Shown: in pieces, positions 22,706 to 27,320 of the stretch
Layout: each line of letters opens with the position of its first letter
Numbering within the stretch: the stretch's first letter is position 1
Origin: Streptococcus suis
GTDB lineage: Bacteria; Bacillota; Bacilli; Lactobacillales; Streptococcaceae
Assembly (NCBI GenBank): GCA_002831545.1
Contig: CP025095.1
Location: 1,054,001 to 1,118,000 of the forward strand
Direction of reading: 5' to 3'
Length of the DNA: 64,000 nt
Notes under the pieces: generated by a model
What the model was told of the DNA's origin: nothing
Databases searched by the model: none
Seen by the model: the letters and a program-made list of their open reading frames with translations, nothing else
Program-made: the position numbers and the translations under genes

Positions 22706-24007
22706 ATGAAAAAGATAAAAGAATGGGGAGGTAGCTTCTGCGCCAATCCCTACCCTATTACGCTGTTCTTACTTGCCCTTTTATTATTTGTCTTACAATG
22801 GTCCTACCCTGTCATCATGGACGATAAGTGGTGGCTAGATAAGCCATTCAGTCTGGACTTTATGGTCGAGCGCTACCAGATATGGTCAAATCGTTTGGTG
22901 ATTGAAAGTTTTGCCTTGGTGTTTAGTCACCTCCCTAAAGTAGTCTTCCGTTTGTTCAATAGTCTCGTCTTTGTTGGCTTACTGGATATCATACTAGCCA
23001 ATAGCTTGGGGAGGAAAGTCAAGTACCTTTTTCTTCTCTTGGGGTTCTTTGCTCTACTTCCGATATCGATGTTTTTAATCCCTGGCTTGATGATGACCAA
23101 TCTAAACTACCTATGGCCGGTAACAGCAGGCCTAGCAAGTTTTCTTCTCTATCGTAGCTACCAAGAAAGAAAATTCAAACATAATATATATATATATATA
23201 TATATATATATTATGTCAAGTATATTACTACTCTTTGCTACGAATCACGAGCAAGTAGCAGTTGTTTTTCTAGCCATTTGGGGCTATGAATGGTGGCGGC
23301 AAAAGGGTCTATCGCCATTTGGTTGGGTTTTGTTCATCCTCACAGGGTGTAATCTTGTTTTTGCCCTTTTGTCACCGGGGATATCCGTTCGGGCTATTGA
23401 GCAAGCAAATAAATACTTTCCTGAGTTTTTTAAATTGACAGTATTAGACAAGGTTTTGCTTGGTTTATCCCATGTTGGAAAGACGCTTTTGTATAATATC
23501 AATCATCTCTTTGTTGTCTTTTTGTTGCTCTTGGTCTTAAATCTTTTCCTGACCCCTCTGTCTAAAAAGCAGTTATTCCCTTTCTTGATTTTTGTACCTT
23601 TTATGGCTCTGTTGTCCCTTGGTCAGCTCTTTATGAAGGTCGGTAATTCCTTGGGAATCTTACAAGATTTATTTGCTTATCCTAAATTTTATGCCGGAAA
23701 GGTTAAAACGCTTCCTGGTTGGCTGACACAGGAAGTATCTGCTTTGTTTGTAGTAGCTATCATTTGTCTGCTCTGCTTGATTGCCTACGCCCTTTATCTG
23801 GTCTTTAGACGGTTGGACTTGGTGTATCTTTTGTTTGTAGCTGTGGCAAGTCTAGCTATGGTTGGTTTTTCTGGAACTATTTTTACATCAGGGGATCGTA
23901 TCTCCTTTATCTTGGCACTCTACCTCATCTACCTGTCGTGTTTGCTCGTCTCAAGGATGATGGATATAAAAAGAAAACATCTCACTATTCAGAAAGGAAA
24001 CCCATGA
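22706..24007 (+). CDS. DUF6056-like multi-pass membrane protein (GT-C type) with in-frame (AT)14 tract
   Basis: This is a 433-residue protein with about 10-11 hydrophobic segments. The first outer loop YPVIMDDKWWLDKPFSLDFM followed by WSNRLVIESFALV is the pattern of DUF6056/GtrC-like GT-C proteins, which use lipid-linked sugars outside the membrane. Codons 160-169 read through an alternating AT run (23184-23211, 14 units), encoding an Ile-Tyr repeat. The frame is open here, but any change not a multiple of three units would cut the protein at about one third. ATG 22706 directly abuts the dehydrogenase stop. The glycan-decorating role is inferred. Confidence 0.7.
   Translation: MKKIKEWGGSFCANPYPITLFLLALLLFVLQWSYPVIMDDKWWLDKPFSLDFMVERYQIWSNRLVIESFALVFSHLPKVVFRLFNSLVFVGLLDIILANSLGRKVKYLFLLLGFFALLPISMFLIPGLMMTNLNYLWPVTAGLASFLLYRSYQERKFKHNIYIYIYIYIMSSILLLFATNHEQVAVVFLAIWGYEWWRQKGLSPFGWVLFILTGCNLVFALLSPGISVRAIEQANKYFPEFFKLTVLDKVLLGLSHVGKTLLYNINHLFVVFLLLLVLNLFLTPLSKKQLFPFLIFVPFMALLSLGQLFMKVGNSLGILQDLFAYPKFYAGKVKTLPGWLTQEVSALFVVAIICLLCLIAYALYLVFRRLDLVYLLFVAVASLAMVGFSGTIFTSGDRISFILALYLIYLSCLLVSRMMDIKRKHLTIQKGNP
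23184..23211. repeat. (AT)14 dinucleotide tract inside a coding sequence
   Basis: There are 28 uninterrupted alternating A/T bases within the DUF6056-like gene. Dinucleotide tracts of this length are prone to slipped-strand mispairing. Gain or loss of one or two units shifts the frame, while three units keep it. Confidence 0.95.
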
Positions 24008-25833
24008 TTTTAAAGAACGTTCAGAAAATCATTCCGCCTAGATGGGCGAGTTTGCTATCGCTGTCAGCCTTTTTCATGCTGACAGTCACTCATCGTACAC
24101 CCTTAGCCCTATTGGTGATGTTGGGAGCGATAGCGACTGCATATATATATATATATAACAGAAGAGAATGGGCTTGGGTCAATCTATGATTGGTCTCGCT
24201 ATGCGACTTACCTCCCTCTAGCAGTCTTGATTGTAGGGGTATGGTGACAAAACTTTTTGATGGGATGGGGATTGGCTTTATCACCACTAACATTCTTCGG
24301 ATTCTTGCTATTCCGATTATTGCTCAGGTTTTGTCACATTTTCATAGACTGCTTGTCAATTGGTGGCAGGGTCTATCATGTGAAGTAGTGACCAAGAAGA
24401 AGTGGGTCTTTTCGGCGAAAACAAACTTTGCCATCCTGTTTGGCATTTATCTCCTTGGGATTAGTGCTCTTTTGAGAGCAAATGTCTACTATAATGATGA
24501 TAACTGGCGATTTTCTGGTGGTAGTCGTGGATGGGATGATTGGAGTCGCTTTTTTACGGATAGAAGCTCCATTTACTTTTTTGGGGGCAAGTTTGCGGTT
24601 GATGTCTCTCCCTATAGTCAGATTCTAGCAGTAGCTATCCTAGCTCTTGTTGGTATCCTCCTATTAGGTCTGCTTTATAAGCGTAAGGCATTTACGATTT
24701 GGGAAGTAGTAGCACTTGTACCTTTGGGATTAAATCCTTTTTTCATCGTCAATCTTAGCTATAAATTTGATGCTCCTTTTATGGCTTTCTCACTGCTTGC
24801 TGCGGTCTTTCCGCTTGTGTTCCGCTTTTCAGGGGCTAGATGGTATGTCTTAGCTTGTTTTCTTGGAAGCTTACTGGTCATGACATCCTACCAGGCTTCT
24901 TTTGGGATTTTTCCCATGCTAGTCATCCTATTGCTCCTGAGAATGTGGCAGGAGAAGGGATGGCATAAGGAGTTAGGTGGTTTCTTATGGCAGTCTTTAC
25001 TAGGTTATGGAGCTGGTGCCCTGTATTTCTATCTAGTTGTCATGATTGCTCCTCGTAAAGATTATCTTGATGTAAGTATTCCTGCTCTATCGGAGATTCC
25101 TGAGTTTCTCCTAAAAAATTACACAGCTTATTTTACCAAGGTATGGGATGGGTTTACCCCTTTGTGGCTTATTACGACTTTGTTTATTTTAGGAAGTTTC
25201 CTAGTGTACTGTATGAGTAAAAAGAGAAATCTTCTTGGATTTAGTTTTTCTCTTGTTTCACTTGTCTTGATGTTGCTCCTTTCCTTTGGCTTCTATCCCA
25301 TACTGGTAGAACCACAGCTAAATAATCGTGCTATGTATGGTCTAGTAGTTGTTATTGTCCTCTGTGGCTTGGTTATAGTAGAGCGGGGGCGGAGATCCGT
25401 TCTTCGTCTACCGATTCTTGTTCTTTCCTATATCTTTTTTGTCTATGCTCTGGTCTATGGAAATGCTCTAGCGACTATTGCTGACTATAGAAAATTCCGT
25501 CTTCAGTTGGTCTATGAGGATTTGAGTCACTTACCACAGGTTAAGAATAAAGAGACAGTAGATGTATATTTTCTTGGAAGGATTTCTGCGCCACCGACCT
25601 TAAAAAAGCAGTTTCTTGCCTACCCAATGTTAGCAATCAGTCATAATGAGTATTGGGATCGTAGAAAGCTGAGTCACTTGCCTACTGTGCAAACAATTTA
25701 TGAGATACCCGACAAGCTACTTCCTACATTAACCCATCTTCCTATGCTAGTAGACACATACTACCACACTATCTATGGGGATGATAAGATGATTTACATT
25801 CGCTTGAAGGAAGATGGAAAGCTGATTGAATGA
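24004..25833 (+). pseudogene. GtrII-like glucosyltransferase membrane protein, frame broken near an (AT)8 tract
   Basis: ATG 24004 overlaps the previous stop and encodes 61 residues, with a hydrophobic helix followed by the (AT)8 tract at 24141-24157, before TGA at 24187. The same frame reopens and runs to 25833, with KTNFAILFGIYLLGISALLR, VYYNDDNWRFSGGSRGWDDW and many membrane helices, typical of Glucos_trans_II proteins. Between 24160 and 24244 another frame gives the better membrane-like reading (IYDWSRYATYLPLAVLIVGVW). So there are probably two compensating shifts, one at or just after the tract and one at about 24235-24247. As read, no full-length protein is made. A product from an internal start is possible. 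Confidence 0.7.
24141..24157. repeat. (AT)8 tract at the break of the GtrII-like gene
   Basis: There are seventeen alternating A/T bases. Adding one AT unit would connect the upstream frame to the membrane-like frame used at 24160-24244. It is the same repeat unit as the tract in the preceding gene. Confidence 0.9.
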
Positions 25834-25852
25834 TAAATGAGAAGGAGATTGC

Positions 25853-27320
25853 ATGTCTACAAAAGAAAACAATAAAAAAATAGTAGCAGGGGGGGGTAAT
25901 CCTGTTCCTGCTACTCGTCCTTGGATTGAGTTTCTATCCGAGTTTTACAGCTGATACGTATATTCATTTTAACCGCACATGGATGGAAAGTGCCATCAAC
26001 ATGTCTCGTAGAAATGGTCGTCCCTTTATTTCCTTATTCTTTATCCTGATGGGGAGTCTGCATCAAGCGCCAGAACTCTATTTGCTTATCTCAAGTTGTT
26101 TAGCACTTTGTTTTCTGGGCTTGTCTGTGTGGTGTTTAGCGAGATTGTTTGAAAAGACTGAGGTAGCTTCCTCTTTGATGGCTCCTTTTTTATCATTGAT
26201 CATCTTGGTCAATCCCCTTATCATCAGCTATTTTTTATTTGTTGAACGTGGTATGATGATGTTTGCTTTATTGATGGCTATTCTTGCCACTTATATACGG
26301 ATTTGCAAACCGATCACGCATTGGCTCCTGGTTTCTACCGTTTTAGCGACAGTATCCATGCTCACCTACCAGTCCTTTACTTCCTTGTACTTGATGCTTT
26401 GCCTGTGTTTTGCGGTGGAAAAACGAGATGTTAAGACAGCTATTCGTAGCTTTCTCCTCTCCTCGATCCCATTTGTCGTGAGTGGTCTTGTTTCACTTCT
26501 TTACCTAAAACTCTTTGGCATTGGTCGATTTAATCTTGAAAATCTCGGACTAGTCGCTCGAATGTTACAACTTTTAAAAAGTTTGATCAAATCATATATT
26601 TTAGGTTTCAACATTGGTCCCGATGGTTTTCTTTTGTTTTCCCTTTTGCTTGCCATTGGCTATCTCCTTTGGAGAGTGAGACGACAACTTAATGGGACAG
26701 CAGCTGAGAAGACAAGAGCGAAGCTTATCTTGCTGGCTCTTCCTTTATTGTTTCTTTTGCCATGTGCCCTAAGTTTGGTTACAAAAGCTGGTTCAGGTGC
26801 TCGGTCTACGTATTCGGCTGCTTGTTTGGTTGGTCTATTCTTATTATTGGCTAGACTAGACTTCAAAAAGGCTAAGCTAGTCAAAGGTACACTAGTCACC
26901 CTCTATCTAGCAGTACTTACGCTGACATTTAACAAAATATTTTTACAACAGATAGTCGTCACCCAGTTGGATCAAAACCGTATGCAGGTGGTACAGCAAA
27001 TGGTTCGTGACTATGAGGAAAAGACGCAGATAAAAGTAACAAAGCGAGCAATATATACAGATGCACATCCTCAGCTGGATAATCAATATACAGACTTTAT
27101 AGATAGTCATTCGGGAATACTTAACACGGGGAATTTAGTGAAAAGCCCCGTTACAAATCTCTACCCATTTTCAATCTATACGTATATGACAGGGGAAAAG
27201 CTTGAAAAAACAGAGAAGGATTCCGCTATAAAAGCCTATTTTAAAAGCAAGGACTGGTCAACCTTCTCACCAGACCAAATCATCATCAAAGGTGATACCA
27301 TCCATATGGCGGTGTATTAA
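25853..27320 (+). pseudogene. GtrII-like membrane glycosyltransferase, switched off by a G8 tract
   Basis: ATG 25853 (GAAGGAG six bases upstream) starts MSTKENNKKIVAG, then enters eight G bases (25889-25896), and with eight G the frame stops after 33 residues. With seven or ten G it would continue directly into VILFLLLVLGLSFYPSFTAD and the rest of a GT-C protein of about 488 residues with some ten helices, ending at 27320. The membrane helix and the downstream family sequence match the seven-G frame with no other defect, so this is best read as a phase-OFF gene rather than a decayed one. An internal TTG at 25926 has no ribosome site. Confidence 0.85.
25889..25896. repeat. G8 homopolymer, putative phase-variation switch
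   Basis: Eight consecutive G lie twelve codons inside the GtrII-like gene in an AT-rich genome. One fewer G gives an uninterrupted gene. Poly-G tracts near the 5' end are the classic layout for slipped-strand phase variation. Confidence 0.95.

Follow-up and report, generated by a model that had tools for sequence, protein, structure and literature searches.

Repeat tracts in three consecutive membrane glycosyltransferase-like genes and in a promoter of a Streptococcus suis polysaccharide locus: a candidate slipped-strand contingency cluster

In Neisseria (lgtA, lgtC, and lgtD) and in Haemophilus (the lipooligosaccharide [LOS] genes), several neighboring or jointly acting glycosyltransferase genes each carry a repeat tract of their own and give rise to combinatorial surface glycans. 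These systems act on Gram-negative lipooligosaccharide, with cytoplasmic transferases and poly-G or tetranucleotide tracts. The phase variation of gtr in Salmonella occurs via DNA methylation and not via slippage, while in Neisseria porA and opc a homopolymer between the -35 and -10 elements sets the spacer length. Here, we analyzed a stretch of 64,000 nucleotides (nt) of Streptococcus suis (GCA_002831545.1, contig CP025095.1, G000:C1:1054001-1118000), hereafter the window, from a genome of 2.72 Mb in one contig. An earlier note, made from the sequence alone, had pointed to three consecutive genes in it (22706 to 27320) resembling glycosyltransferases of the C fold (GT-C), each with a repeat tract. 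The best reading of this module, and one that we hold to be likely, is a slipped-strand contingency cluster in which three side-chain enzymes, with a promoter tract above them, would vary a surface polysaccharide.

The product of pneumococcal wciZ is an O-acetyltransferase. The 15B/15C switch depends on a TA repeat in this gene, and the tract count sets the structure (excerpts of PMC5266551, citing van Selm 2003). Both the S. suis locus and the switch described in these excerpts place a dinucleotide tract in a streptococcal gene for polysaccharide modification, but the former involves three genes for glycosyltransferase-like membrane proteins, together with a promoter tract, instead of one gene of the capsule locus. 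It differs from the lgt and LOS systems in that the proteins are GtrII and DUF6056 membrane proteins, the tracts are AT and G runs, and the host is a Streptococcus. By analogy, the module might work like the pneumococcal TA switch and the Neisseria lgt locus. Slipped-strand on/off switching of ModS, through a GAGCA tract, has been shown by experiment in S. suis (PMC8125046; PMC6265453, both in excerpt). ModS differs from the module in being a DNA methyltransferase and in having a pentanucleotide repeat, and the portions of these two sources that were searched do not mention a glycosyltransferase. According to PMC6265453, slipped-strand switching is considered far more frequent in Gram-negative than in Gram-positive bacteria. 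The earlier note knew of no three-gene version in Streptococcus, and we found none in the open-licence PMC literature. Like the gtrA-gtrB-gtr clusters of phages, Salmonella, and Shigella, where gtrA and gtrB are the typical partners, the module has genes (2 and 3) that match Pfam GtrII. Unlike those clusters, the module has no prophage context, and GtrA (PF04138) was absent from the 26 scanned proteins of positions 418 to 28834.

The genes and tracts of the module are the following:

22706..24007, forward strand: gene 1, a DUF6056 membrane protein of 433 amino acids, open as sequenced (PF19528, 55.1 bits, cut-off 27)
23184..23211, forward strand: tract 1, (AT)14 within gene 1; relatives differ in frame state
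24004..25833, forward strand: gene 2, GtrII glucosyltransferase-like (PF14264, 108.2 bits, cut-off 30)
24141..24157, forward strand: tract 2, (AT)8.5 within gene 2 and ahead of its GtrII domain; relatives differ in frame state
24228..24245, forward strand: a stretch of gene 2 holding a short G run, second frame change; the run is shorter than in three other copies (L004, L005, and L008)
25854..27320, forward strand: gene 3, GtrII glucosyltransferase-like (PF14264, 69.6 bits, cut-off 30)
25889..25896, forward strand: tract 3, G8 close to the gene 3 start; relatives differ in frame state

It was thus borne out that three membrane glycosyltransferase-like genes follow one another and that each has a tract of its own, different from the others. 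The idea that all three are GtrII-like held for genes 2 and 3, which match PF14264 above its curated cut-off, but not for gene 1, for which the profile search ruled GtrII out (PF14264 unmatched, PF19528 matched). The predicted proteins have 12, 14, and 9 hydrophobic segments, respectively, and their first large loop carries an aspartate pair (DD) in genes 1 and 2 and a single aspartate in gene 3. We consider the three as GT-C-like, a putative fold assignment.

Both AT tracts are longer than expected by chance. A search for (AT)7 in the window gave 10 overlapping matches, all within these two tracts, and none in 100 shuffles, which rules out a chance origin for both. The genome has eight sites of at least (AT)8, two of them in the module, and 10 sites of at least G8.

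We searched 284 Streptococcus genomes for the three genes (an earlier DNA search covered 197). Any match was found in 35 genomes for gene 1, 17 for gene 2, and 19 for gene 3, and a genome scan for gene 3 gave three loci. Close relatives, including our own genome, were restricted to 3 of the 284 genomes for gene 1 (own, G149, and G016) and to 4 for each of genes 2 and 3 (these and G277); the loci L003, L005, and L004 were taken as those of G149, G016, and G277, respectively. Read from the usual starts, gene 1 is open in our genome and genes 2 and 3 are shifted. The start frame of gene 2 ends after 61 codons, with the GtrII domain in a downstream frame that is still open (24190-25833), and that of gene 3 ends after 33 codons, with an open downstream frame at 25926-27320. 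In G149, gene 1 is open and gene 3 is shifted; in G016, genes 1 and 2 are shifted and gene 3 is open; in G277, gene 1 is deleted and genes 2 and 3 are open. No two of these four genomes share one set of frame states. For all three genes, tract length differs between isolates and the frame changes with it; over these four genomes, the survey of tract states suggested by the earlier note revealed both open and shifted alleles of each gene.

Protein databases tell of similar variation, with the proviso that member counts do not equal independent isolates. For gene 1 (10 proteins, two distant ones being dropped prior to counting), there were six full-length clusters (38 members) and two 3' fragments starting in the tract or close to it (100 and 2 members). 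For gene 2, 36 relatives were retrieved, of which the 30 close ones were used and six distant ones (24-38% identity) dropped. Eleven of the 30 clusters (102 members) are open from the usual start, 5 (42 members) begin at an ATG in another frame, 10 (22 members) have an internal start only, and 4 (8 members) are partial or short. The open clusters carry two, three, or four Tyr-Ile units, which are length steps that keep the frame. Gene 3 had two full-length clusters (140 and 7 members) versus one with an internal start (10 members).

The coding pieces beside the tracts are under purifying selection. The Nei-Gojobori ratio of nonsynonymous to synonymous rates (Ka/Ks), computed on native pieces never joined across a tract, was 0.11 to 0.38 in all 18 comparisons; the two shifted gene 3 alleles of the window and L003 gave 0.20. 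The frames are preserved even while out of phase, in line with reversible switching and at odds with long-standing decay.

A fourth tract, overlooked by the earlier note, lies at the head of the locus:

L039 15628-15654 (G000:C1:1049628-1049654): poly-G spacer promoter, ~27 kb upstream of the module

It consists of TTGACA, a 15-nt spacer ending in G8, and TATAAT, and stands 33 nt before the start codon of a galE-like gene. The TTGACA motif with at least G7 occurs once in 92 kb of our genome and in none of 200 shuffles. The homopolymer length differs between strains among five genomes, with a G run and spacer of G8 and 15 nt in our genome, G10 and 17 nt in G149, G016, and G277, and G7 and 14 nt in G219. 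In G219, the head of the locus is present and the GT-C module is not among its matches. In G277, no open reading frame (ORF) of at least 150 codons matching those from galE to 11587 was found between the poly-G promoter and the genes for GT2 glycosyltransferases, so the promoter may there serve the GT2 part directly.

Promoters of this kind recur in the genus. The pattern TTGA, 4 to 14 nt, at least G8, 0 to 6 nt, and TATAAT gave 54 sites in 37 of the 284 genomes, and the reversed pattern gave none; in our own genome, 4 of the 10 G8 sites are poly-G-spacer promoters. We examined 34 sites (30 returned loci, L153-L182, and the 4 own ones), taking the longest ORF starting at most 400 nt downstream. 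Their spacers range from 15 to 22 nt. Of the downstream ORFs of 30 of these sites, scanned for domains, 19 encode surface-protein or pilin domains: 10 YSIRK signals, 2 KxYKxGKxW signals, 2 LPXTG anchors, and 5 SpaA or pilin domains. These data support the placement of the promoter tract of our locus in a putative promoter class. Unlike in porA and opc, the poly-G promoter heads a streptococcal polysaccharide locus here, and across the genus it mostly precedes surface-protein genes.

Other genomic AT tracts were found at the following loci:

L050 2288-2304: within a TTGACA...TAAT-like promoter
L051 2793-2818: before a type I restriction R-subunit gene
L052 2451-2476: in the N-terminal part of a GT2 ORF
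L053 2560-2593: between GT2 and GDPD ORFs
L054 2464-2481: before a large ORF read as a pilus or adhesin protein from its sequence
L055 2783-2805: splits an Acyl_transf_3 gene into two frames

The tract in the Acyl_transf_3 gene resembles the pneumococcal O-acetyltransferase switch.

Under the slipped-strand reading, the DUF6056 and the two GtrII multi-pass proteins, encoded at the 3' end of the cluster, would each attach a side-chain sugar on the outer face of the membrane, taken from a lipid-linked donor, with the surface polysaccharide as the presumed acceptor. A polymerase slipping in the AT or G tract of a gene would shift its frame, so that only part of the cells would make each enzyme, and length changes would be reversible. 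The poly-G tract between -35 and -10 would alter the spacer length and, with it, the output of the upstream genes. One clone could thus probably show several different coats. The tracts, the state differences between the four genomes, the length steps in the database, the low Ka/Ks, the domains, the promoter tract, and the other genomic AT tracts all support this reading.

Several observations weigh against it. The G8 of gene 3 alone is not beyond chance, since at least one such run arose in 30 of 100 shuffles of the window. Short G/C runs arise by chance and evolved mutability needs evidence (PMC11868660, in excerpt), a caution that applies to this tract. States were read from single assemblies, where homopolymer errors are possible, and that of gene 2 in G149 is not readable, its contig ending within the AT tract. 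The starts of database proteins were chosen by annotators, and many of the records are incomplete. The donor side is unaccounted for, given the missing GtrA, and a sequence search of solved structures gave no match. The link of the poly-G promoter to the three-gene module is uncertain, because the module may use a promoter of its own at 21165. Among the 30 genes downstream of such promoters, 11 lack a surface-protein or pilin domain, including one LytR_cpsA_psr, one HPr kinase, and one ABC permease. Finally, gene 2 of our strain has a second lesion outside the AT tract, ~80 bases past it; the stretch between the two is out of frame, beyond which the reading frame comes back. In this strain, the AT tract on its own can therefore not yield a full-length protein, and the eight decoration patterns envisaged by the earlier note are out of reach by tract slippage alone. 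That number is further undercut by the internal deletion that removes gene 1 in G277, one of the four module genomes.

The second lesion of gene 2 and the deletion of gene 1 in G277 are also compatible with gene decay, in which dispensable genes are being lost and the shifts are ordinary loss-of-function mutations at mutable tracts. The narrow distribution of the module, with close relatives in only 4 of the 284 genomes, points the same way. Against decay stand the low Ka/Ks in every comparison, even between two shifted alleles of gene 3, the recurrence of both states in lineages that differ elsewhere, and the in-frame steps by which the open alleles of gene 2 differ. We regard decay as decidedly unlikely. 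It is also highly improbable that the shifts are assembly or basecalling errors. The differences do sit in homopolymers and dinucleotide runs, and one contig breaks inside such a run, but they turn up again in genomes deposited independently of one another and in numerous database proteins.

For gene 2, the tract could instead pick between protein forms, the shift removing the N-terminal hydrophobic part and leaving a shortened GtrII protein that begins at an internal start. In the open relative P0001, the tract falls at residue 46, before the GtrII domain (residues 156-452), so that a shift there may still leave a protein, one lacking part of its N terminus. The window, L004, and L005 share an internal ATG from which the downstream frame is open for 530 codons (523 codons in L003), and database clusters starting in another frame or internally (5 and 10, respectively) would agree with such a form. 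These internal starts are, however, annotators' choices, and the usual start of gene 2 has, in our reading of the sequence, a Shine-Dalgarno-like AGAAAGGAAA. The explanation does not apply to gene 1, whose tract is mid-protein, and hardly applies to gene 3. We hold it to be rather unlikely, and the slipped-strand contingency cluster remains our preferred reading.

On its gene content, the locus around the module is a polysaccharide cluster, lying between a gyrA/sortase-like region on one side and radC on the other. Upstream of the window (L039), the order is gyrA, sortase, and then a galE-like gene, Wzz, a tyrosine-kinase-like ORF, and a Polysacc_synt_2 protein; the gyrA and sortase ORFs were named by reading the sequence and not by family search. 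The window itself holds DegT, two sugar-transferase, several glycosyltransferase, pyruvyltransferase, flippase, and epimerase genes, with RadC downstream. Wzz sites at G000:C1:712402 and 1050749 mark two wzd-type polysaccharide loci in one genome, and the present cluster is a second wzd/wze-type locus alongside the one at 712402. The features next to the module are the following:

12726..21110, forward strand: glycosyltransferase genes and a polytopic protein of 505 amino acids, neighbors of the module in all four module genomes
21165..21193, forward strand: promoter-like site (TTGATT, 17-nt spacer, TATAAT) preceding the dehydrogenase and the three GT-C-like genes; consensus match only
21224..22705, forward strand: helix-turn-helix (HTH) domain HTH_3 fused to a UDP-glucose/NDP-sugar dehydrogenase, 493 amino acids (PF01381, PF03721, PF00984, PF03720; TIGR03026 above cut-off)
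27415..27446, forward strand: terminator-like hairpin of 13 pairs after gene 3; consensus match only

The 505-amino-acid protein has no Pfam match and is named here as a putative flippase. The earlier note had placed the three genes in one transcription unit behind a nucleotide-sugar dehydrogenase. This is probable, with the addition that the dehydrogenase also has an N-terminal HTH. A single unit of dehydrogenase and three genes is plausible because the promoter-like site keeps its layout in all four module genomes, the genes abut or overlap (22706-24007, 24004-25833, and 25854-27320) directly after the HTH-dehydrogenase fusion, and the hairpin follows gene 3. Consensus matches of this kind are near chance in number (38 promoter-like sites versus a shuffle mean of 34.1). 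An Rfam scan of 12000-28200 gave no RNA switch match at gathering score. A viral origin was also considered and rejected, as a scan of viral contigs with P0001 gave no relative.

Some further features were noted. The same HTH starts ORFs of 493 to 548 amino acids in 16 genomes (18 matches) among the matches listed, and a second HTH-started ORF of our genome lies at G000:C1:729980. In G149, ~1.3 kb with an epimerase-like ORF of 332 codons (L010 3051-4049) lies between genes 1 and 2, and this inserted gene adjoins a remnant resembling the start of gene 1. L004 and L005 carry, downstream of gene 3, a copy (88-89% identity) of the stretch of ~270 base pairs at 58493-58764. Tandem repeats were seen at 60763-60812 (15-nt unit, 3.3 copies) and 42632-42675 (22-nt unit, 2 copies).

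We see about an even chance that poly-G-spacer promoters are a general streptococcal device for surface phase variation, standing mostly before cell-wall-anchored proteins and pilins and sometimes before polysaccharide loci. The S. suis lineage would then stack this promoter layer on the frame switches of three side-chain enzymes in the same locus, so that the amount of coat and its decoration would vary independently. The promoter class is a testable catalogue (54 sites in 37 genomes), with tract lengths readable in long-read data. Should the switches be functional, a single S. suis-like clone would hold several coat variants at once, with consequences for serotyping, for the binding of phages and antibodies, and for the selection of vaccine antigens.

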